Source: Candidatus Bathyarchaeota archaeon
GTDB taxonomy: Archaea > Thermoproteota > Bathyarchaeia > Bathyarchaeales > Bathycorpusculaceae
Assembly (NCBI GenBank): GCA_026014735.1
Contig: JAOZHT010000003.1
Coordinates: 124,001 to 188,000 of the forward strand
Length of the DNA stretch: 64,000 nucleotides
Reading direction: 5' to 3'
In this document: in pieces, positions 13,706 through 22,657 of the stretch
How the letters are laid out: each line of letters starts with the position of its first letter
Position numbering within the stretch: the stretch's first letter is position 1
Position numbers and translations under genes: made by a program
Notes under the pieces: model-generated
Told to the model about the DNA's origin: nothing
Database searches by the model: none
The model's input: the letters and a program-made list of their open reading frames with translations, nothing else

Positions 13706-14041
13706 TTAAGGTTGCTTGAGGACTTGCAGTGCCTCGCTTCGAGAGCCCAAAATCTTGAAGATCTGTGTGAAGCCTGAAATCTCGAAGACCTCGCGGACAT
13801 AGGGTTTAAGCGATACCAAAAGGATTTGGCCGCCTGATCTCTGGAGGCTTTTAGCTGAGGACAAAAGAACCCTTAAGCCTGCGCTTGCAACATAATCGGT
13901 TTGGGAAAAGTCACAGATTACTTTTTTTGTCCCCGCCGCAATTAACTCTTTGAGTGCGGTTTCCACTTCGTTGGCAGTGTAGGCGTCAAATCTGGGCACC
14001 ATGACTGCTGTGGCTACGTCTCCTTCGGTCCTTAATTCCAT
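13706..14041 (-). CDS. STAS-domain anti-sigma factor antagonist-like protein
   Basis: 111 residues, full length for SpoIIAA/RsbV. The core DFSQTDYVASAGLRVLLSSAK carries the Ser of the SAG motif that RsbW-type kinases phosphorylate in bacteria. The unphosphorylated form binds the kinase or another partner. The gene lies 17 bases after the RsbW-like kinase gene. Archaea lack bacterial sigma factors, so the target of the switch must be something else. No known anti-sigma target lies next to it. Confidence 0.88.
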   Translation of the reverse strand: MELRTEGDVATAVMVPRFDAYTANEVETALKELIAAGTKKVICDFSQTDYVASAGLRVLLSSAKSLQRSGGQILLVSLKPYVREVFEISGFTQIFKILGSRSEALQVLKQP

Positions 14042-14058
14042 GTTTCCACTTCATGATT

Positions 14059-14478
14059 CTATTTTTTTATATACTTAGCGATTGTTAATAAATTCTTATC
14101 ATCGCGGCGCAGATAGCTTACTTCATCCATGAATTTTTTCATGAAAAATATGCCTAAGCCCCCTGCTTTTCGTTCGCTCAAACCGCTTTCTACATCGGGC
14201 TCCGGCAACGTAGTTGGGTCAAAGGGTCCACCCCAATCCGATATCTCCACGATGAATTTCGAATCTGTCAGCATACAGCCGACCACGATTTTTCCCTCCA
14301 TGCTTGAGTATGCATGTTCGATGATGTTTGTGCATGCCTCATCAACCGACAATTGCACCGCATGGACATCCCTTGGGTTATCTATGCTGTAGTAATGCAT
14401 CGTTTCCTCGATGAACTCGCCGATTCTAGCGAGGTTTTCCATTTTTCCCTCAACGGTAAGTTCAAACTTCTCTTTCAC
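14059..14478 (-). CDS. RsbW/SpoIIAB-like serine protein kinase (HATPase)
   Basis: 139 residues. The GHKL ATPase fold is visible: N-box QLSVDEACTNIIEHAY (residues ~42-57), G1 box EISDWGGPFDP, and G2 box KAGGLGIFFMKKFMDEV. In bacteria these kinases phosphorylate a STAS antagonist and sequester a sigma factor. Here the STAS gene follows by 17 bases and the matching phosphatase precedes by 35 bases, so the kinase-phosphatase-substrate triad is complete. ATP-binding residues look intact, so I expect an active kinase. Confidence 0.88.
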   Translation of the reverse strand: MKEKFELTVEGKMENLARIGEFIEETMHYYSIDNPRDVHAVQLSVDEACTNIIEHAYSSMEGKIVVGCMLTDSKFIVEISDWGGPFDPTTLPEPDVESGLSERKAGGLGIFFMKKFMDEVSYLRRDDKNLLTIAKYIKK

Positions 14479-14513
14479 CGCATGGTCCCCTTTTCCTTTT
14501 TACTTATGCTGCT

Positions 14514-16112
14514 CTAGGCCCCCTTGATGATTAGCAAGGTGATGTCATCGAACTGCGGCATATCTCCCGCGAAGGCTTTCACAGCAGATAAAATCTCTTC
14601 AAGAATCTTCTGAGAAGAAAGATGGGCGTTTTGGCGGATGATTTCTGTTAACCGCGTTTCACCAAACATTTCCTGCTGCGAATTAATTGATTCGGTGACG
14701 CCGTCGGTGAACATGACCACAACGTCGTCTTCCCCGATTTTTACTCTGCTGGATTTGTATTCCATGTTCTCTGCTGCGCCAAGGACGATTCCGGTCGGCG
14801 GTAGCCTCTCGACTGTTCCAGTCTGGCTTCGAAAAACCATGGGGGGGTTATGTCCGGCGTTGACGTAGGTTAAGGTTCGGTCTGTGTCGTTTAGTAAGCC
14901 GAAGAAGAGGGTTACGAACATTCCGGATTTTGAGTCCTGCGTGATGGTGTTGTTGGAGTTGAAGATGACTCTGGCGGGGTCATGGTGCCAGAGTGCATTA
15001 ACCCTGACGACAACTCTTGATAATGCCATGAAGAGGGCTGCTGGAACTCCCTTTCCCGAAACATCCGCAACAAGCAACCCATGCCTGCCCCCCTCAAGAG
15101 TCATCACCTCATAGGGGATCACATCAAAAAAGTCGCCTCCAACCTCTTTCGCCATGACGGTCCGGGCTGCAATATCGATCCCTGGAATCCGCGGAATCGC
15201 TTCAGGCAGGAAGCTTTTCTGGATTTCCGCGGCAATCTGGAGCTCAGCGTTTGAACGGGCAAGCCTCCCCTCCATTTCTCGGCGTTCAGTGATGTCCCGG
15301 ATGGTTTCTATGGCGCCGATGACTGCTCCGCTGGTCGGGTCATAGAGGGGCGTAGCTTTCGCCCATAGGTATGCGCCGCCTGGCCGAAAATCGGGGATAA
15401 ACACGTCAGCGACCAGTGTGTCTACATTGCGCTCCACGTTACTGTACCTTTTCTGCAACTCGGTTTCAGGCAGAAAAATCAGGTCCACAAGCATGGGGCG
15501 ACGCTCCTTATAGAAGGGCAGGGCGTACTCGTAGTTGGCTTTGCCGAGCATGGCGTCGGCGGGTATGCTGGTGAGCATTTCCATGGCGCTGTTCCACGCG
15601 ATAACCTTGCCCTCCAAGTTAATCACGAAGGTGGCGTCGGGGAGAAAGCTAAGGATGTCGGCGAGGCTGCGGCGTGACTGAACAATCTCTTGTTCCGCGC
15701 GTTTGCGGTCCGTTATGTCGCGGATGGTTTCTATTGAGCCGACGACGTCACCGCTGTTTGGGTCATAGAGGGGCGTAGCTTTAGCCCAGAGGTATGCGCC
15801 GCCTTCCCGGAAATTTGGGAGAAAAATCTCGACGATAAGCGTGTCGCCTAACCGTTCTACCGTGTCGTACTTGTGCTCTACTTCGGCTTGGGGCATAAAA
15901 ATCAGGTTTGCCAGCATGGGCCTGCGTTGCCCATAGAAGGGCATTGCATATTCGTAGTCTGATTTGCCCAGCATTTCGCTTCGGGGTATGCTGGTTAGCA
16001 TTTCCATGGCGCTGTTCCACATGATGACTTTGCCGTTTAAATCGATGACGAAGGTGGCGTCGGGTAAAAACTCGATTATGGCATCCCGGAACTGTTGGCC
16101 GTCTGCGTTCAT
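14514..16112 (-). CDS. PAS-PAS-SpoIIE serine phosphatase
   Basis: 532 residues. Two PAS domains (residues ~8-130 and ~145-270) are near copies of each other: both contain DATFVI.L.GKVI.WNSAMEMLTSIP and end YLWAKATPLYDP.SG.V.G.IETIRDIT. A short helix (LARSNAELQIAAEIQKSFLPE) leads to a PP2C-type SpoIIE domain with VADVSGKGVPAALFMA and MFTDGVTES, holding the metal-binding Asp residues. RsbU/RsbP phosphatases dephosphorylate the STAS antagonist in response to a signal sensed by their N-terminal part. It is the first gene of the operon at 12466-16112. The PAS ligand is unknown. The clear internal duplication suggests a recent PAS copying event. Confidence 0.92.
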   Translation of the reverse strand: MNADGQQFRDAIIEFLPDATFVIDLNGKVIMWNSAMEMLTSIPRSEMLGKSDYEYAMPFYGQRRPMLANLIFMPQAEVEHKYDTVERLGDTLIVEIFLPNFREGGAYLWAKATPLYDPNSGDVVGSIETIRDITDRKRAEQEIVQSRRSLADILSFLPDATFVINLEGKVIAWNSAMEMLTSIPADAMLGKANYEYALPFYKERRPMLVDLIFLPETELQKRYSNVERNVDTLVADVFIPDFRPGGAYLWAKATPLYDPTSGAVIGAIETIRDITERREMEGRLARSNAELQIAAEIQKSFLPEAIPRIPGIDIAARTVMAKEVGGDFFDVIPYEVMTLEGGRHGLLVADVSGKGVPAALFMALSRVVVRVNALWHHDPARVIFNSNNTITQDSKSGMFVTLFFGLLNDTDRTLTYVNAGHNPPMVFRSQTGTVERLPPTGIVLGAAENMEYKSSRVKIGEDDVVVMFTDGVTESINSQQEMFGETRLTEIIRQNAHLSSQKILEEILSAVKAFAGDMPQFDDITLLIIKGA

Positions 16113-17379: not shown

Positions 17380-17620
17380 TTATTTGTTGACGACGTCGCT
17401 GCTTGAGAGCGTTTTTACACCTAAATCTTCTGCGGTTTTAGCGAGTTTTGCGTCGTCGGAAACTAGGTTTTGCTGTTTTCTTTTGCCTCCCCTAGGTAGG
17501 CTGAGTCATAGACGGTTATTATTACGAAAATCATTAATGCGTGACGTTAAGTTCAGCGGCTGCTAACGCCTGTGGGCTCAAAGGGGCTATGCTTATATCT
17601 TCGTATTGGTTACATAAAAG
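17380..17620 (-). pseudogene. Decayed PIN-domain (VapC-like) gene
   Basis: Minus-strand translation gives pieces of one PIN ribonuclease in three frames: DISIAPLSPQALAAAELNV (about 17545-17600), then after a frame change ITVYDSAYLGEAKENSK, then after another NLVSDDAKLAKTAEDLGVK ending LSSSDVVNK at the stop 17380-17382. LTVYD..YL.LA and LVSDD.KLAK are the conserved C-terminal half of VapC-type toxins. Two frameshifts and the missing N-terminus make it inactive. It overlaps the longest possible start of the PAS gene, which argues for the GTG start of that gene at 17641. No antitoxin remnant was seen. Confidence 0.62.
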
Positions 17621-17640
17621 TGCTGTTTTTGCAGCTGAAA

Positions 17641-19605
17641 GTGAACGATTTGTCTGCCCTTTATTTTAGTAAACAAAATAGCGAGAACAAGTACAAACAA
17701 CTTTTCGAAGAGGCAATAGACGCGATCATAATCATTGGTTCAGAATCAGACGTCATCCTTGAATGCAACCAAGCTGCAGCGGAACTATTTGAAAGAACAA
17801 AAGACGAATTGATTGGGGAACACGAAGCCATATTGTATCCATTCGAAGAAACTGCCAATAGCTTAACAACACTGTTCAGAGAAAAAAAAGCGCACTCACC
17901 AAATTTAAAAAAATATGAAATCCAAACAGAAACCAAAGTCATCACTAAAAATGAACAAATAAAAGATGTGTCCATTCACGCCTATTCAATGGACATCGAA
18001 GGCAAAGAAATAATCTACGCCTCATTTAGAGATGTCACTCAGCAAAAACAGGCAGAAGCAGCGCTTAGATATTCGGCGGAACAGTTCAGCATTTTAGCTG
18101 AAACTTGGCCGAATATGATCGTTATCATCCAGGATGGAAAAGTTGCATATCTAAACCAAGAAACCGTAAGAGTCACTGGCTACTCTAAAGAGGAGTTTTA
18201 TTCACCTGATTTTGATTTGACCAAGCTATTATCCCCTGAATTTTTACCTGAGTTTATGGAGGAATTTGATAAAAGAATCAAAGGGTTAAGTTTGGAGCCT
18301 TTAGAGTTTACATTAATAACAAAAAAGGGGTCAACTATTGATGCAATATGGAGCGCCAGACCCATCACTTTTAATGGAAAACTTGGACTTGTAGGCGTCG
18401 CAACAGACATTACAGAACGTAAAAAAAATGAACAACTAATCATAACACAAAAGAATCAACTAGAAGGGATATTCGCATCCAGTCCAGACGCTATAACTGT
18501 AACCGATTTATCGGGAAATATTTTACACTGCAACCAAGCTGCGGTTTCCCTGATTGGATTAAATTCAAAAGAAGAAGCAATCGGAAAAAATATCCGCCAA
18601 CTGATTTCTCCAAAAGACCAACAAAAAGCCTATATGGATTTAGCAAAAGTTATGGAAACTGGCGTCCCAGTAAAAAATTTAGAACTGGTTTTTTTAACTA
18701 AGGATGGAAAAGAACTGCCAGTCGAGTTATCGGGAGCAGCCATAAAGGATGCTTCAGGAAAACCAGTAAATTTAGTTACAATAACTCACGACATTTCTGA
18801 ACGTAAAGAAATGCAGCAAAAACTCCAGCAGGAAAGAGATATTCTCAATGCCGTTACAAGAAGCATCAACGCAGGATTTGTGATGGTGAGCCGAAACTAC
18901 GAGATTGTCTGGACTAACGAATTTATAAAAGGCCTTTTTGGATCCGCTGAGGGGAAGTTATGTTACCAAGCACTGCATGGTCACAAAAGTAAAAGCATAT
19001 GCTCCGATTATAGCGTAAGAAAAGTTTTTGAAGATAACGCAAATGAGGCATCCCATGAAATTCAAATAACAGGCGCTGAAGGAAAAAAGGTTTGGATGAA
19101 AATAGCCGCTGCACCCATAAAGGATGCAGAGGGCCAAGTGGTTGCTGCAGCAGAGCTTGTTGTGGATATAACTGACATTAGGCAAGCTGAAGAACAGATT
19201 CGGCTGCTAAGCAGTGTTGTAGAACAAGAGGTGGATGGCATAGCGGTTTCAGACAACCAAGGGCGAATCCTCTTTTTAAACAAAAGCTGGATAACAATGC
19301 ATGAACTAGCCGACGGCGCTGAGGATCTAACCGGTGAATCAATCATGCGGTTCTATGACCCAGACCAACTCAAAGCCATCGGCAGTAAAACCGACAACGA
19401 TGGAGTTTTCAGGGGACGACTTAAGCAAATAACCAAAGATGGAACAGGCTTCACTGCCTTAGCCACTCTAAGCCCCCTGCGAGACAAGGAAGGACAAATA
19501 GTCGGAACCATACACACAGCAAAGAAGCTAACCGAGATAGTCCGCGAAATAAGAAATGTAGGATCCCATTCTTATAGAGGGGATTCAGCGGTGGATGGGG
19601 TGTAA
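17641..19605 (+). CDS. Five-PAS-domain sensor protein without output domain
   Basis: About 654 residues from GTG at 17641. Five PAS repeats follow each other (about residues 20-135, 140-260, 265-385, 390-510, 515-635). PAS-type ends are visible as FRDVTQQK, ATDITERKK, THDISERKE and VVDITDIRQ. No histidine kinase, GGDEF, DNA-binding or methyl-accepting domain follows; the protein stops after the fifth PAS. The fourth PAS has CYQALHGHKSKSIC, resembling Cys-rich PAS domains that hold a cofactor, but this is unproven. The next gene begins 1 base after the stop, so the protein most likely signals by contact with the KaiC-like and GTPase partners. An in-frame start at 17572 is possible but lies within the PIN relic. 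Confidence 0.85.
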   Translation: MNDLSALYFSKQNSENKYKQLFEEAIDAIIIIGSESDVILECNQAAAELFERTKDELIGEHEAILYPFEETANSLTTLFREKKAHSPNLKKYEIQTETKVITKNEQIKDVSIHAYSMDIEGKEIIYASFRDVTQQKQAEAALRYSAEQFSILAETWPNMIVIIQDGKVAYLNQETVRVTGYSKEEFYSPDFDLTKLLSPEFLPEFMEEFDKRIKGLSLEPLEFTLITKKGSTIDAIWSARPITFNGKLGLVGVATDITERKKNEQLIITQKNQLEGIFASSPDAITVTDLSGNILHCNQAAVSLIGLNSKEEAIGKNIRQLISPKDQQKAYMDLAKVMETGVPVKNLELVFLTKDGKELPVELSGAAIKDASGKPVNLVTITHDISERKEMQQKLQQERDILNAVTRSINAGFVMVSRNYEIVWTNEFIKGLFGSAEGKLCYQALHGHKSKSICSDYSVRKVFEDNANEASHEIQITGAEGKKVWMKIAAAPIKDAEGQVVAAAELVVDITDIRQAEEQIRLLSSVVEQEVDGIAVSDNQGRILFLNKSWITMHELADGAEDLTGESIMRFYDPDQLKAIGSKTDNDGVFRGRLKQITKDGTGFTALATLSPLRDKEGQIVGTIHTAKKLTEIVREIRNVGSHSYRGDSAVDGV

Positions 19606-19606
19606 A

Positions 19607-20332
19607 ATGTCTGCAGGGCTTTTTCCTTCAGGTATACCTGCATTGGATGTTGCCCTAAAGGGTGGTTTCGCTAGGCCATCAAACCTGCTGGTTATGGGTG
19701 ACCCTTGGTCATCAAAAAGAGAAGTCGGATTGACTATGCTTAGTGCGGGGTTACGTAATAATGAGGCGGCAATATGCATCTCGGCTACAAAAACTGCTGA
19801 AGAAATCAGGGCACGTTGGCTCGAGTGTGGATTAACCCCGACTTTTGAGCAGGAAGGCAGAGTGAAATTCGTCGATTGCTATTCAAAAATGATTGGAGTT
19901 AATGCTTCTGATACACCGTCGATAAAGCGAGTGCCAAGCATAATAGAATACACCAAGCTCACGGTTGCAGTGAATGAATGGTGTTCAGGCTTTTTTTTTA
20001 AAAATACCGTTGTAAGGGTACTGTTTGATTCGCTTTCTACCCTCTTAATCTACAGTAGTCTGCAAACGGTTATGCGTTTTTTGCATATTTTCTTAGGGCA
20101 GCTTAGGAAACAAAACGTCTTGGGTTTTCTAATAGTTGAGGAAGGTGCACATGACTTGTTGACGGTTAACCAACTGGAAAGTTTCTCGAACGGTGCAATA
20201 GTGATGGAAGCAAATTCTCTTCGGTGCGACGGATTCTTCGGGTACCCAAGCATGTCCGTGCCGTTTTCTTTTTCACCCGCCGAATCCGTCACCCAAAACC
20301 TTCGCAGAAATGGCAGGTTGGAGGCGCCTTGA
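19607..20332 (+). CDS. KaiC/RAD55-like RecA-fold protein with degenerate Walker A
   Basis: About 241 residues. The start LFPSGIPALDVALKGGFARPSNLLVMGDPW is the entry of KaiC-type RecA domains (G...LD..L.GG...G...L..G), but the P-loop reads GDPWSSKRE instead of GxxGxGKT. A Walker B-like strand VRVLFDSLSTLL remains, as do ISATKTAEEIRARW and FLIVEEGAHD. It is therefore probably a pseudo-ATPase that serves as a binding platform. It follows the PAS gene by 1 base and precedes the GTPase fusion by 1 base, which indicates translational coupling. ATG at 19607 has GGGGTG ahead; the alternative ATG at 19595 overlaps the PAS gene. Confidence 0.75.
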   Translation: MSAGLFPSGIPALDVALKGGFARPSNLLVMGDPWSSKREVGLTMLSAGLRNNEAAICISATKTAEEIRARWLECGLTPTFEQEGRVKFVDCYSKMIGVNASDTPSIKRVPSIIEYTKLTVAVNEWCSGFFFKNTVVRVLFDSLSTLLIYSSLQTVMRFLHIFLGQLRKQNVLGFLIVEEGAHDLLTVNQLESFSNGAIVMEANSLRCDGFFGYPSMSVPFSFSPAESVTQNLRRNGRLEAP

Positions 20333-20333
20333 A

Positions 20334-21536
20334 ATGGTAGAAGCCTACATGTCTAACGAAAAAACGCAGACGGGCATAAATATTGTCGACCAACTTCTCG
20401 ATGGAGGAATACCCCGCGGTTCATCGGTTCTAATCAGGACAAATCCCCTCTCTGACCCATCCACTATAGCTATACAGCTCCTTAGAAATCGGTTAAGGAG
20501 TGGCGACATAGGCGTTTACTTTGTCAGCAACAAATCCGCCAATGCAGTTATTGATGAGTCAGTATCGTTGGGCATGAGCCTAGCAGAGTATAAACAGCAA
20601 AATCGTCTTTTCTTCATCGACGGGTACTCTGCGCTTTTTGGGCTCAATAGTGAGGAAGCATACGCCGTCGACAACAGTTACGACTGCAATTCAGTGTTTA
20701 GTGTGGTAACAAAAGCGCTCTATGAATGCGGCCGAAAAGGCAAAGTATTCTTCATCTACGACTCATTAAACACTTCAATCGATGAATTCGGAGGCGCAAT
20801 TTTAGGCGAAGTGGATAATTGGAAAAAAATAGCGGTAACCTTCAACGCAATTCTATGCTTCCTTTATACCGAGTGGAACTATGAAAACGCTGTCTCTCAA
20901 ACAGTAAGTAGCCTTTACCCCACCATCATTGACCTTATGGCACTGGAAAGAATAGTGGGCAATCAAGCTATTACCGTGAGCAAAAAAGGGGGGGTCCCCG
21001 TGAAAGAAAAAATAATTCCGATAAAGAGGTCGGTGACCGGGGAAATAAAAGGTTACATACCAAAAATCCTGGTGACAGGACCATTTCATGCTGGGAAAAC
21101 AACCATTGTGCATGCGCTTTCAACTCGCGCTGTCAGTGTGCAGCGGTTCGGGACAACTGTTGCGTTAGATTTCGGGCATGTAGACTATAAAGGGTTCACT
21201 TTAGATTTGTTCGGAACTGTTGGGCAACCAAGATTTGACCCCATACTAAAACTTCTTGGAGGAGAAGCATTGGGCGCTATACTAGTAGTTGATAGCACTA
21301 AACCGGAAGAATTTCCCAGAGCCAAAGAAATGATGTTAAAAGCAAAAGTCAACGGCTTGCCATATGTGGTGGCAGCAAATAAACAGGATTTGCCTAAAGC
21401 CATGTCTGCTTCCGAAATTAAAATTAAAATGAATATTCCCAATGATGTTGAAGTGATCGGTACTGTTGGAAACGACAAAGCAAGCAGTATAGGCGTTTTA
21501 GACAGTCTAATTGAAAAAATTTTATGCGGAGACTAG
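20334..21536 (+). CDS. KaiC-like pseudo-ATPase fused to a COG2229-type small GTPase
   Basis: About 400 residues. Residues ~10-225 repeat the KaiC-like fold of the previous gene (TGINIVDQLLDGGIPRGSSVL), again with a broken P-loop (RTNPLSDPST) and a Walker B-like FFIYDSLNT. After a linker (IIPIKRSVTGEIKGY), residues ~245-400 form a Ras-like GTPase: G1 GPFHAGKTT, G3 DLFGTVGQPRF, G4 NKQDLP, plus GALGAILVVDSTKPEEF. These are features of the COG2229 GTPases found in Streptomyces conservons (CvnD) and related to MglA and Arf. The Roadblock gene follows by 4 bases, the usual partner of such GTPases. Start ATG at 20334 has GGAGG ten bases ahead; ATG at 20349 is an alternative. Confidence 0.85.
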   Translation: MVEAYMSNEKTQTGINIVDQLLDGGIPRGSSVLIRTNPLSDPSTIAIQLLRNRLRSGDIGVYFVSNKSANAVIDESVSLGMSLAEYKQQNRLFFIDGYSALFGLNSEEAYAVDNSYDCNSVFSVVTKALYECGRKGKVFFIYDSLNTSIDEFGGAILGEVDNWKKIAVTFNAILCFLYTEWNYENAVSQTVSSLYPTIIDLMALERIVGNQAITVSKKGGVPVKEKIIPIKRSVTGEIKGYIPKILVTGPFHAGKTTIVHALSTRAVSVQRFGTTVALDFGHVDYKGFTLDLFGTVGQPRFDPILKLLGGEALGAILVVDSTKPEEFPRAKEMMLKAKVNGLPYVVAANKQDLPKAMSASEIKIKMNIPNDVEVIGTVGNDKASSIGVLDSLIEKILCGD

Positions 21537-21540
21537 CACT

Positions 21541-21906
21541 ATGTCGACTAAGGCTTTGATTGATGAAATTTTGAAGGAACTTAAGAGTGTCGGAGGAATT
21601 GAATCCTCAGCCGTCGTTACAAGAGACGGCTTACTCGTTGCTGCAGACACATCAGTTGATGTGGATGCTGAAACATTCGCCGCCATGAGTGCAAGTATGG
21701 CGGGGTCAGCTGAAACGGCGATAACTGAAGTTAACGGGGGAACTGCTGCTCGAATTATTGTTGAGGCTGCAAACTCCAAATTAATCACTCTTGGGGCTGG
21801 CTCAAAAGTCCTGCTTGTGGCGTTGACAAAACAGCAGGTTCCTCTTGGTTTAGTTTTGATAAAGCTTGGCGATGCAGCCAGAAGAATAAGCAGCATTGTA
21901 ACATAG
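21541..21906 (+). CDS. Roadblock/LC7 domain protein
   Basis: 121 residues from the ATG at 21541, behind GGAG. The whole protein is one Roadblock/LC7 (MglB-like) domain: LIDEILKELKSVGGIESSAVVTRDG, AETFAAMSASMAGSAETAI, and a last strand VLLVALTKQQVPLGLVLIKL. In bacteria MglB is the GTPase-activating partner of MglA; in Streptomyces CvnB is its conservon counterpart. The gene sits 4 bases behind the GTPase fusion, so a GTPase/regulator complex is expected. The longer frame beginning at 21511 overlaps the fusion gene and lacks support. Confidence 0.9.
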   Translation: MSTKALIDEILKELKSVGGIESSAVVTRDGLLVAADTSVDVDAETFAAMSASMAGSAETAITEVNGGTAARIIVEAANSKLITLGAGSKVLLVALTKQQVPLGLVLIKLGDAARRISSIVT

Positions 21907-21949: not shown

Positions 21950-22657
21950 GTGCGGTTTTTCAAAAGAAAAAAAGATACAAGTAAAACCGATCAGGCAGCC
22001 ATAAAAAAGTGGGTAACGGAGTACGAGGATGAGGAAACAAAAAAGGCTGAGAAAGAAAGAGCCTTAAAGGCATTTAATAAAAAGTTTAAGCTATACATCA
22101 TCTTAAGTGTCCTTTACGGCTTAGTTTTTGTAAACTACATCGACAATACTATCACGTCTGGAGGGTTTGCCTACAGCGGCTACCACCTGTGGCTCACCAT
22201 AATATATTTTTTTCCGTTCATAATCTTGACGATTACTTTCCCGAGGAACTGGCAGTTAACCATTGGGCTGGGGCTTCTAGCTTCGCTGATGAACGATGTT
22301 TTCTACGGCATGGTTCGCAGCCTCATGGGGTCCCAAATTGATCTTGTCTGGTATTACAAGCTTTGGCTTATACCCAGCGGCACACTCCTATTCAATCTAA
22401 ACCTTGGCGTAGTAACCATCCCCGTCTACTCATGGCTGATGGCACTTACCATCTACGCCCGAATCGCAATTGTCATCGTACTGCTGTGGCGTTGGAAACA
22501 ACAAGCAAAAGTCAGATACTTAAGTCAACCAATGCATGAAAAGAAAAACCTGATTTCAAACTGGTGGAAAAAACAACTGAAAAATAGAGTTACAAAGCCT
22601 TCAACCCCAAAGATAACGGGTTTGCGTCTGCCAAGGACAGGCAATAGCATTCTATGA
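21950..22657 (+). CDS. Unknown membrane protein at the end of the GTPase operon
   Basis: 235 residues starting with GTG at 21950, 43 bases after the Roadblock gene. A very basic N-terminus (RFFKRKKDTSKTDQAAIKK) and a charged helix (DEETKKAEKERALKAFNKKFK) precede about four transmembrane helices (near residues 46-66, 80-98, 103-125 and 160-190), and a basic cytoplasmic tail follows. I recognise no family. Its place suggests a membrane anchor or effector for the PAS/GTPase/Roadblock complex, but this is inference from position only. Confidence 0.65.
   Translation: MRFFKRKKDTSKTDQAAIKKWVTEYEDEETKKAEKERALKAFNKKFKLYIILSVLYGLVFVNYIDNTITSGGFAYSGYHLWLTIIYFFPFIILTITFPRNWQLTIGLGLLASLMNDVFYGMVRSLMGSQIDLVWYYKLWLIPSGTLLFNLNLGVVTIPVYSWLMALTIYARIAIVIVLLWRWKQQAKVRYLSQPMHEKKNLISNWWKKQLKNRVTKPSTPKITGLRLPRTGNSIL

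Follow-up and report, generated by a model that had tools for sequence, protein, structure and literature searches.

Sequence, structure-model and neighbourhood analysis of an archaeal fusion between a KaiC-like putative pseudo-ATPase and an MglA-type GTPase found beside a candidate Roadblock GAP

Within the window, a 64,000-nucleotide stretch of a Candidatus Bathyarchaeota genome, a single gene encodes a KaiC-like half with a broken P-loop joined to a small-GTPase half with an intact one, which raises the question of what became of the nucleotide function of the first half and what the joined protein does. The first-pass annotation proposed that the function had passed from the RecA-like half to the GTPase half. 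We favor a different reading, at a probability of roughly 0.6, in which a pseudo-ATPase scaffold, a fused MglA-type GTPase, a Roadblock GAP and a PAS input would together make up an archaeal switch. The domains, the dead motifs of the N half, the intact motifs of the GTPase half and the conserved gene association were established by computation, and the features of the fusion gene are as follows.

20334..21536, + strand: fusion protein of 400 aa, KaiC-like pseudo-ATPase half followed by MglA/Arf-type GTPase half
20334..21029, + strand: N half, residues 1-232, KaiC/RecA fold
20436..20465, + strand: former Walker A, RTNPLSDPST, residues 35-44
20745..20774, + strand: Walker-B-like strand VFFIYDSLNT, residues 138-147, placed by ortholog alignments
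21030..21533, + strand: GTPase half, residues 233-400
21078..21104, + strand: G1/P-loop GPFHAGKTT, intact and conserved in alignments
21153..21158, + strand: G2 TT (switch I), from alignments
21210..21227, + strand: G3 FGTVGQ, lacking the Asp of DxxG, of the MglA group 2-5 type (alignments; PMC4316618)
21378..21389, + strand: G4 NKQD, from alignments

The reading frame is open over the coordinates first assigned to it, and its best start is the ATG at 20334, which has a GGAGG 9 nt upstream and a position shared by the orthologs. Coding on the opposite strand was rejected, as the reverse translation is full of stops. Full-length orthologs were found in 14 of 256 Bathyarchaeia genomes (in one, G041, the gene is split between two contigs), in 2 genomes from a second class of Thermoproteota and, among 199 sampled genomes of the class to which an ANME-2 archaeon belongs, as a single match spanning nearly the whole fusion model in 52 genomes, with 54 matching at 1e-25. 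This conservation refutes the suggestion that the gene is decaying, mis-assembled or otherwise a chance product of sequencing, for which nothing was found except the degenerate motifs themselves and to which we give practically no credence. One ANME-2 genome (G256) has three full-length copies of the fusion, and a KaiC-like gene directly follows two of these copies.

The assignment of the first half to the KaiC/RecA type held up in both profile and fold comparisons. The KaiC family profile matched significantly over residues 12-135 (PF06745, 2.3e-12, over the Pfam cut-off), and the model of the N half, most of which is predicted with good confidence, aligned with 2dr3 over 211 residues (Z 21.4, 2.8 A) and with cyanobacterial KaiC at a Z of about 20. 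The P-loop is broken, as had been noted. The Walker A motif GxxxxGK[ST] is absent from this half and from all orthologs examined, with TNPLSDPST occupying the position of GEAGTGKT in intact relatives. The catalytic Glu is also gone (VSNKS vs TIDE in intact KaiC relatives), and both it and the P-loop are lost in every ortholog examined. Judged from its sequence, the N half is a KaiC homologue by fold and profile and is predicted not to be a canonical KaiC ATPase; loss of Walker A would not in itself prove that nucleotide binding is lost. The N half might therefore still bind a nucleotide or another ligand in a non-canonical way, sense the energy state and gate the GTPase. The Walker-B-like Asp is retained in the Thermoproteota fusions, and the former P-loop has an invariant Pro (Pro38) and a recognizable lineage pattern and is therefore constrained, but the Lys is lost in all aligned rows, as is the catalytic Glu, and the ANME-2 clade shows decay of the Walker B region too, with the Asp missing (IENVA), so that we regard such a site as unlikely.

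The second half was recognized as an Arf-type GTPase over residues 244-369 (PF00025, 8.4e-14, over the Pfam cut-off) and by a profile match to Arf structures (4e-20), and the small GTPase with an intact P-loop described earlier, presumably of the COG2229/MglA kind, was recovered. The motifs GPFHAGKTT, DLFGTVGQ and NKQD are invariant or nearly so across 14 orthologs, and the consensus over the aligned fusions is GPxxAGK[TS], TT, FGTxGQ and NK(Q/H)D. Of the motifs that define Ras-superfamily small GTPases, G1 (GxxxxGK[ST]) is present and conserved as GPFHAGKT and G4 (NKxD) is present as NKQD. The G3 motif departs from DxxGQ in that the Gln is retained and a Gly takes the place of the Asp, a form shared with MglA groups 2-5, and no clear G5 (SA[KL]) could be recognized in the C-terminal part of the fusion. 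TT in G2 together with GTPGQ in G3 is the signature of MglA groups 2-5 (PMC4316618); all aligned fusions have TT in G2 and GT(V/I/P)GQ in G3, with Val or Ile replacing the Pro in the Thermoproteota fusions. The identity of this half rests on these motifs and profiles because its structure models are poor, pLDDT being mostly 25-45 over its first half in two models built from three-row alignments. Constraint is much stronger on the GTPase half, whose mean pairwise identity in the fusion alignment is 0.71 vs 0.39 for the N half.

The genes flanking the fusion on the same strand are listed here.

17572..19605, + strand: multi-PAS protein without a kinase domain, putative sensor (Pfam; start uncertain)
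19595..20332, + strand: second KaiC-like protein, 245 aa, DUF7504/KaiC, with the degenerate P-loop GDPWSSKRE (Pfam, alignment, tree)
21541..21906, + strand: Roadblock/LC7 protein, 121 aa, putative GAP (PF03259, 8.7e-16)
21950..22657, + strand: membrane-protein-like reading frame, membership of the module uncertain

Twenty-seven distinct loci were compared, two of which end at contig edges, leaving 25 on which adjacency to a Roadblock gene could be scored. A same-strand Roadblock/LC7 gene, the MglB-type neighbor by which MglA groups 2-5 are also recognized, lay next to the fusion at all 25, with a gap of at most 42 nt at 24 and an intervening V4R gene at the other (L042). Strong Roadblock matches were found in 14 of 14 fusion genomes vs 3 of 242 other Bathyarchaeia (Fisher p = 1.6e-20, a test on the 256 genomes that ignores kinship between them). 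Gene associations of this kind would not in themselves prove that the proteins touch. The source genome, which is 99.3% complete, yielded one Roadblock and one Arf-type GTPase, namely the fusion-Roadblock pair alone. An Asp-Gly pair has been reported for the MglB partners of MglA groups 2-5 (PMC4316618), and it is present in the Roadblock protein beside this fusion and in most of the others aligned. Roadblock proteins have been shown experimentally to act as GAPs on GTPases of this kind, MfpD on MfpB (PMC9769811) and MglB on MglA. The MglA-type signature and the Roadblock pairing would also suit a regulator of polarity or surface structures, comparable to MglA/MglB, the conservons or type IV pilus control, and type IV pilus loci have been reported to have archaeal Roadblock (arCOG02603) and KaiC families in their vicinity (PMC4858521). 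That role seems doubtful here, as no pilus or archaellum gene was recognized in the annotated neighborhood.

At 24 of the 27 loci, no more than 2.4 kb separates the fusion from a second KaiC-like gene. The P-loop of this gene in the window had been called independently degenerate, and this proved correct: its lesion is distinct from the one in the fusion because orthologs in other families retain GxPMTGK[ST]. In the tree of this protein, the degenerate P-loops are confined to a single 15-member clade (support 89/91) and the protein of L102, the truncated row of L047 and the N-extended row of L117 not being counted as degenerate. Several lineages have a third, intact KaiC near the fusion; a genome-wide search of the source genome found no ortholog of it and one weak partial match only.

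Genes for putative sensors often adjoin the module. The multi-PAS gene overlaps the second KaiC-like gene by 11 nt, and multi-PAS proteins without a kinase also occur at L034-L037, L102 and L103, while L100 has a PAS protein with a STAS-like part near the fusion. Besides the V4R gene of L042, protoglobin genes are found at L042 and L044, where they adjoin the Roadblock gene (L042:6963-7547, L044:8409-8921), which suggests that oxygen or another gas serves as the input in some lineages. The membrane-protein-like reading frame downstream of the Roadblock gene matched no Pfam family over its cut-off, and at these loci it is conserved solely in the closest relative, L034, at 76% identity. At two loci of family f3 (L038:9387-11966 and L047), a GvpD-like P-loop protein and two winged-helix-Roadblock proteins stand beside the fusion, and a transcriptional output is possible there. 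Elsewhere in the window, a bacterial-type partner-switching set of STAS (PF01740), HATPase_c_2 (RsbW-like) and PAS-PAS-SpoIIE phosphatase genes occupies 13706-16112 on the - strand, with about 1.5 kb between this set and the KaiC/GTPase operon.

These data bear on the proposal that the GTPase half took over the ATPase role of the RecA-like half within the same protein. In its favor, no NTPase site of the module other than that of the GTPase is intact in the source genome, where both KaiC-like proteins are degenerate and the intact third KaiC is missing. However, every ortholog examined, across three classes, combines a dead KaiC P-loop bearing the invariant Pro with an intact GTPase P-loop, and none of them pairs a live KaiC half with the full GTPase signature. 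GTPases of the same type are also encoded by stand-alone genes that adjoin a Roadblock gene in several further families of Thermoproteota (L112-L116), and L111 has the gene order V4R-Roadblock-GTPase. The GTPase domain therefore brought its own nucleotide site, and the switch already existed when the pseudo-ATPase was attached to it. In many relatives, moreover, an intact KaiC gene adjoins the fusion, and ATPase activity is therefore kept there in trans. A transfer of function between the halves is thus improbable, and the proposal holds in a limited sense for the source genome, whose module has kept an intact nucleotide site nowhere but in the GTPase.

In the GTPase-domain tree, from which very divergent paralogs of G204 and G205 were left out, the stand-alone relatives group together in a single clade (99/98) with no fusions interspersed, a topology consistent with one fusion event. 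A mirror-image paralog occurs in Bathyarchaeia family f18 (L049:4287-5402 and L050:301-1425), in which the KaiC half keeps an intact Walker A (GDGGTGKS) and the GTPase-like half has a P-loop but no recognizable G3; it adjoins a separate KaiC gene with the dead P-loop NDPENDAST.

In the switch that we favor, the N half would be a scaffold that no longer binds or hydrolyzes ATP in the usual way and that probably forms a hetero-oligomer with the neighboring KaiC-like protein, which in other lineages the intact third KaiC may also join. The upstream multi-PAS protein would deliver the signal, the fused MglA-type GTPase would act as the switch with the adjacent Roadblock protein as its GAP, and the GTP-bound form would act on an effector; no conserved effector was found. 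We infer the oligomerization, the GAP action, the direction of the signal and the effector. A bolder version, to which we would give slightly less than even odds, is a widespread archaeal module with a pseudo-ATPase ring carrying GTPases, by which the KaiC hub network would be hard-wired to a Roadblock-regulated Ras-type switch and the archaeal KaiC system would gain a GTP-based output. KaiC-like proteins have been proposed as hubs of archaeal signaling, and few of their outputs are known. A conserved fusion that regularly stands beside a candidate GAP offers a concrete, biochemically testable output for one KaiC branch, and shows the MglA/MglB logic in use on an archaeal scaffold.

No description of the KaiC-GTPase fusion or its cassette was found in the literature searched, outside of which lay the main hub study (Makarova et al. 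2017, mBio). PMC5847659, citing Makarova et al. 2017, describes inactivated KaiC-like proteins (iKaiC) of archaeal signaling hubs, with REC, HalOD1 and other fusions; like the present protein, these have the KaiC fold, have lost the ATPase motifs and are linked to sensor domains, but unlike the fusions described there the present one carries a Ras-type GTPase and is tied to a Roadblock protein. PH0284 (2dr3), a KaiC-like RecA superfamily ATPase, shares the fold of the N half and lacks the GTPase half, whereas the fusion lacks the Walker A motif. On the GTPase side, MglA/MglB, MfpB/MfpD and the conservon pair CvnD/CvnB share the GTxGQ form of G3, the TT in G2 and the adjoining Roadblock gene (PMC4316618, PMC9769811), but MglA, MfpB and CvnD are described as single-domain proteins, while the GTPase described here follows a KaiC-like half within one protein. 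Group 4 MglA proteins, found mainly in methanogens, are likewise archaeal with a GTPGQ-type G3, but no conserved neighbors were found for them (PMC4316618), whereas the Roadblock and KaiC-like neighbors of the fusion are nearly constant. The iKaiC hubs and the MglA/MglB pairs are thus each known, and their union in one conserved cassette appears to be new; recurring in two distant archaeal groups, the arrangement looks like a conserved signaling switch.
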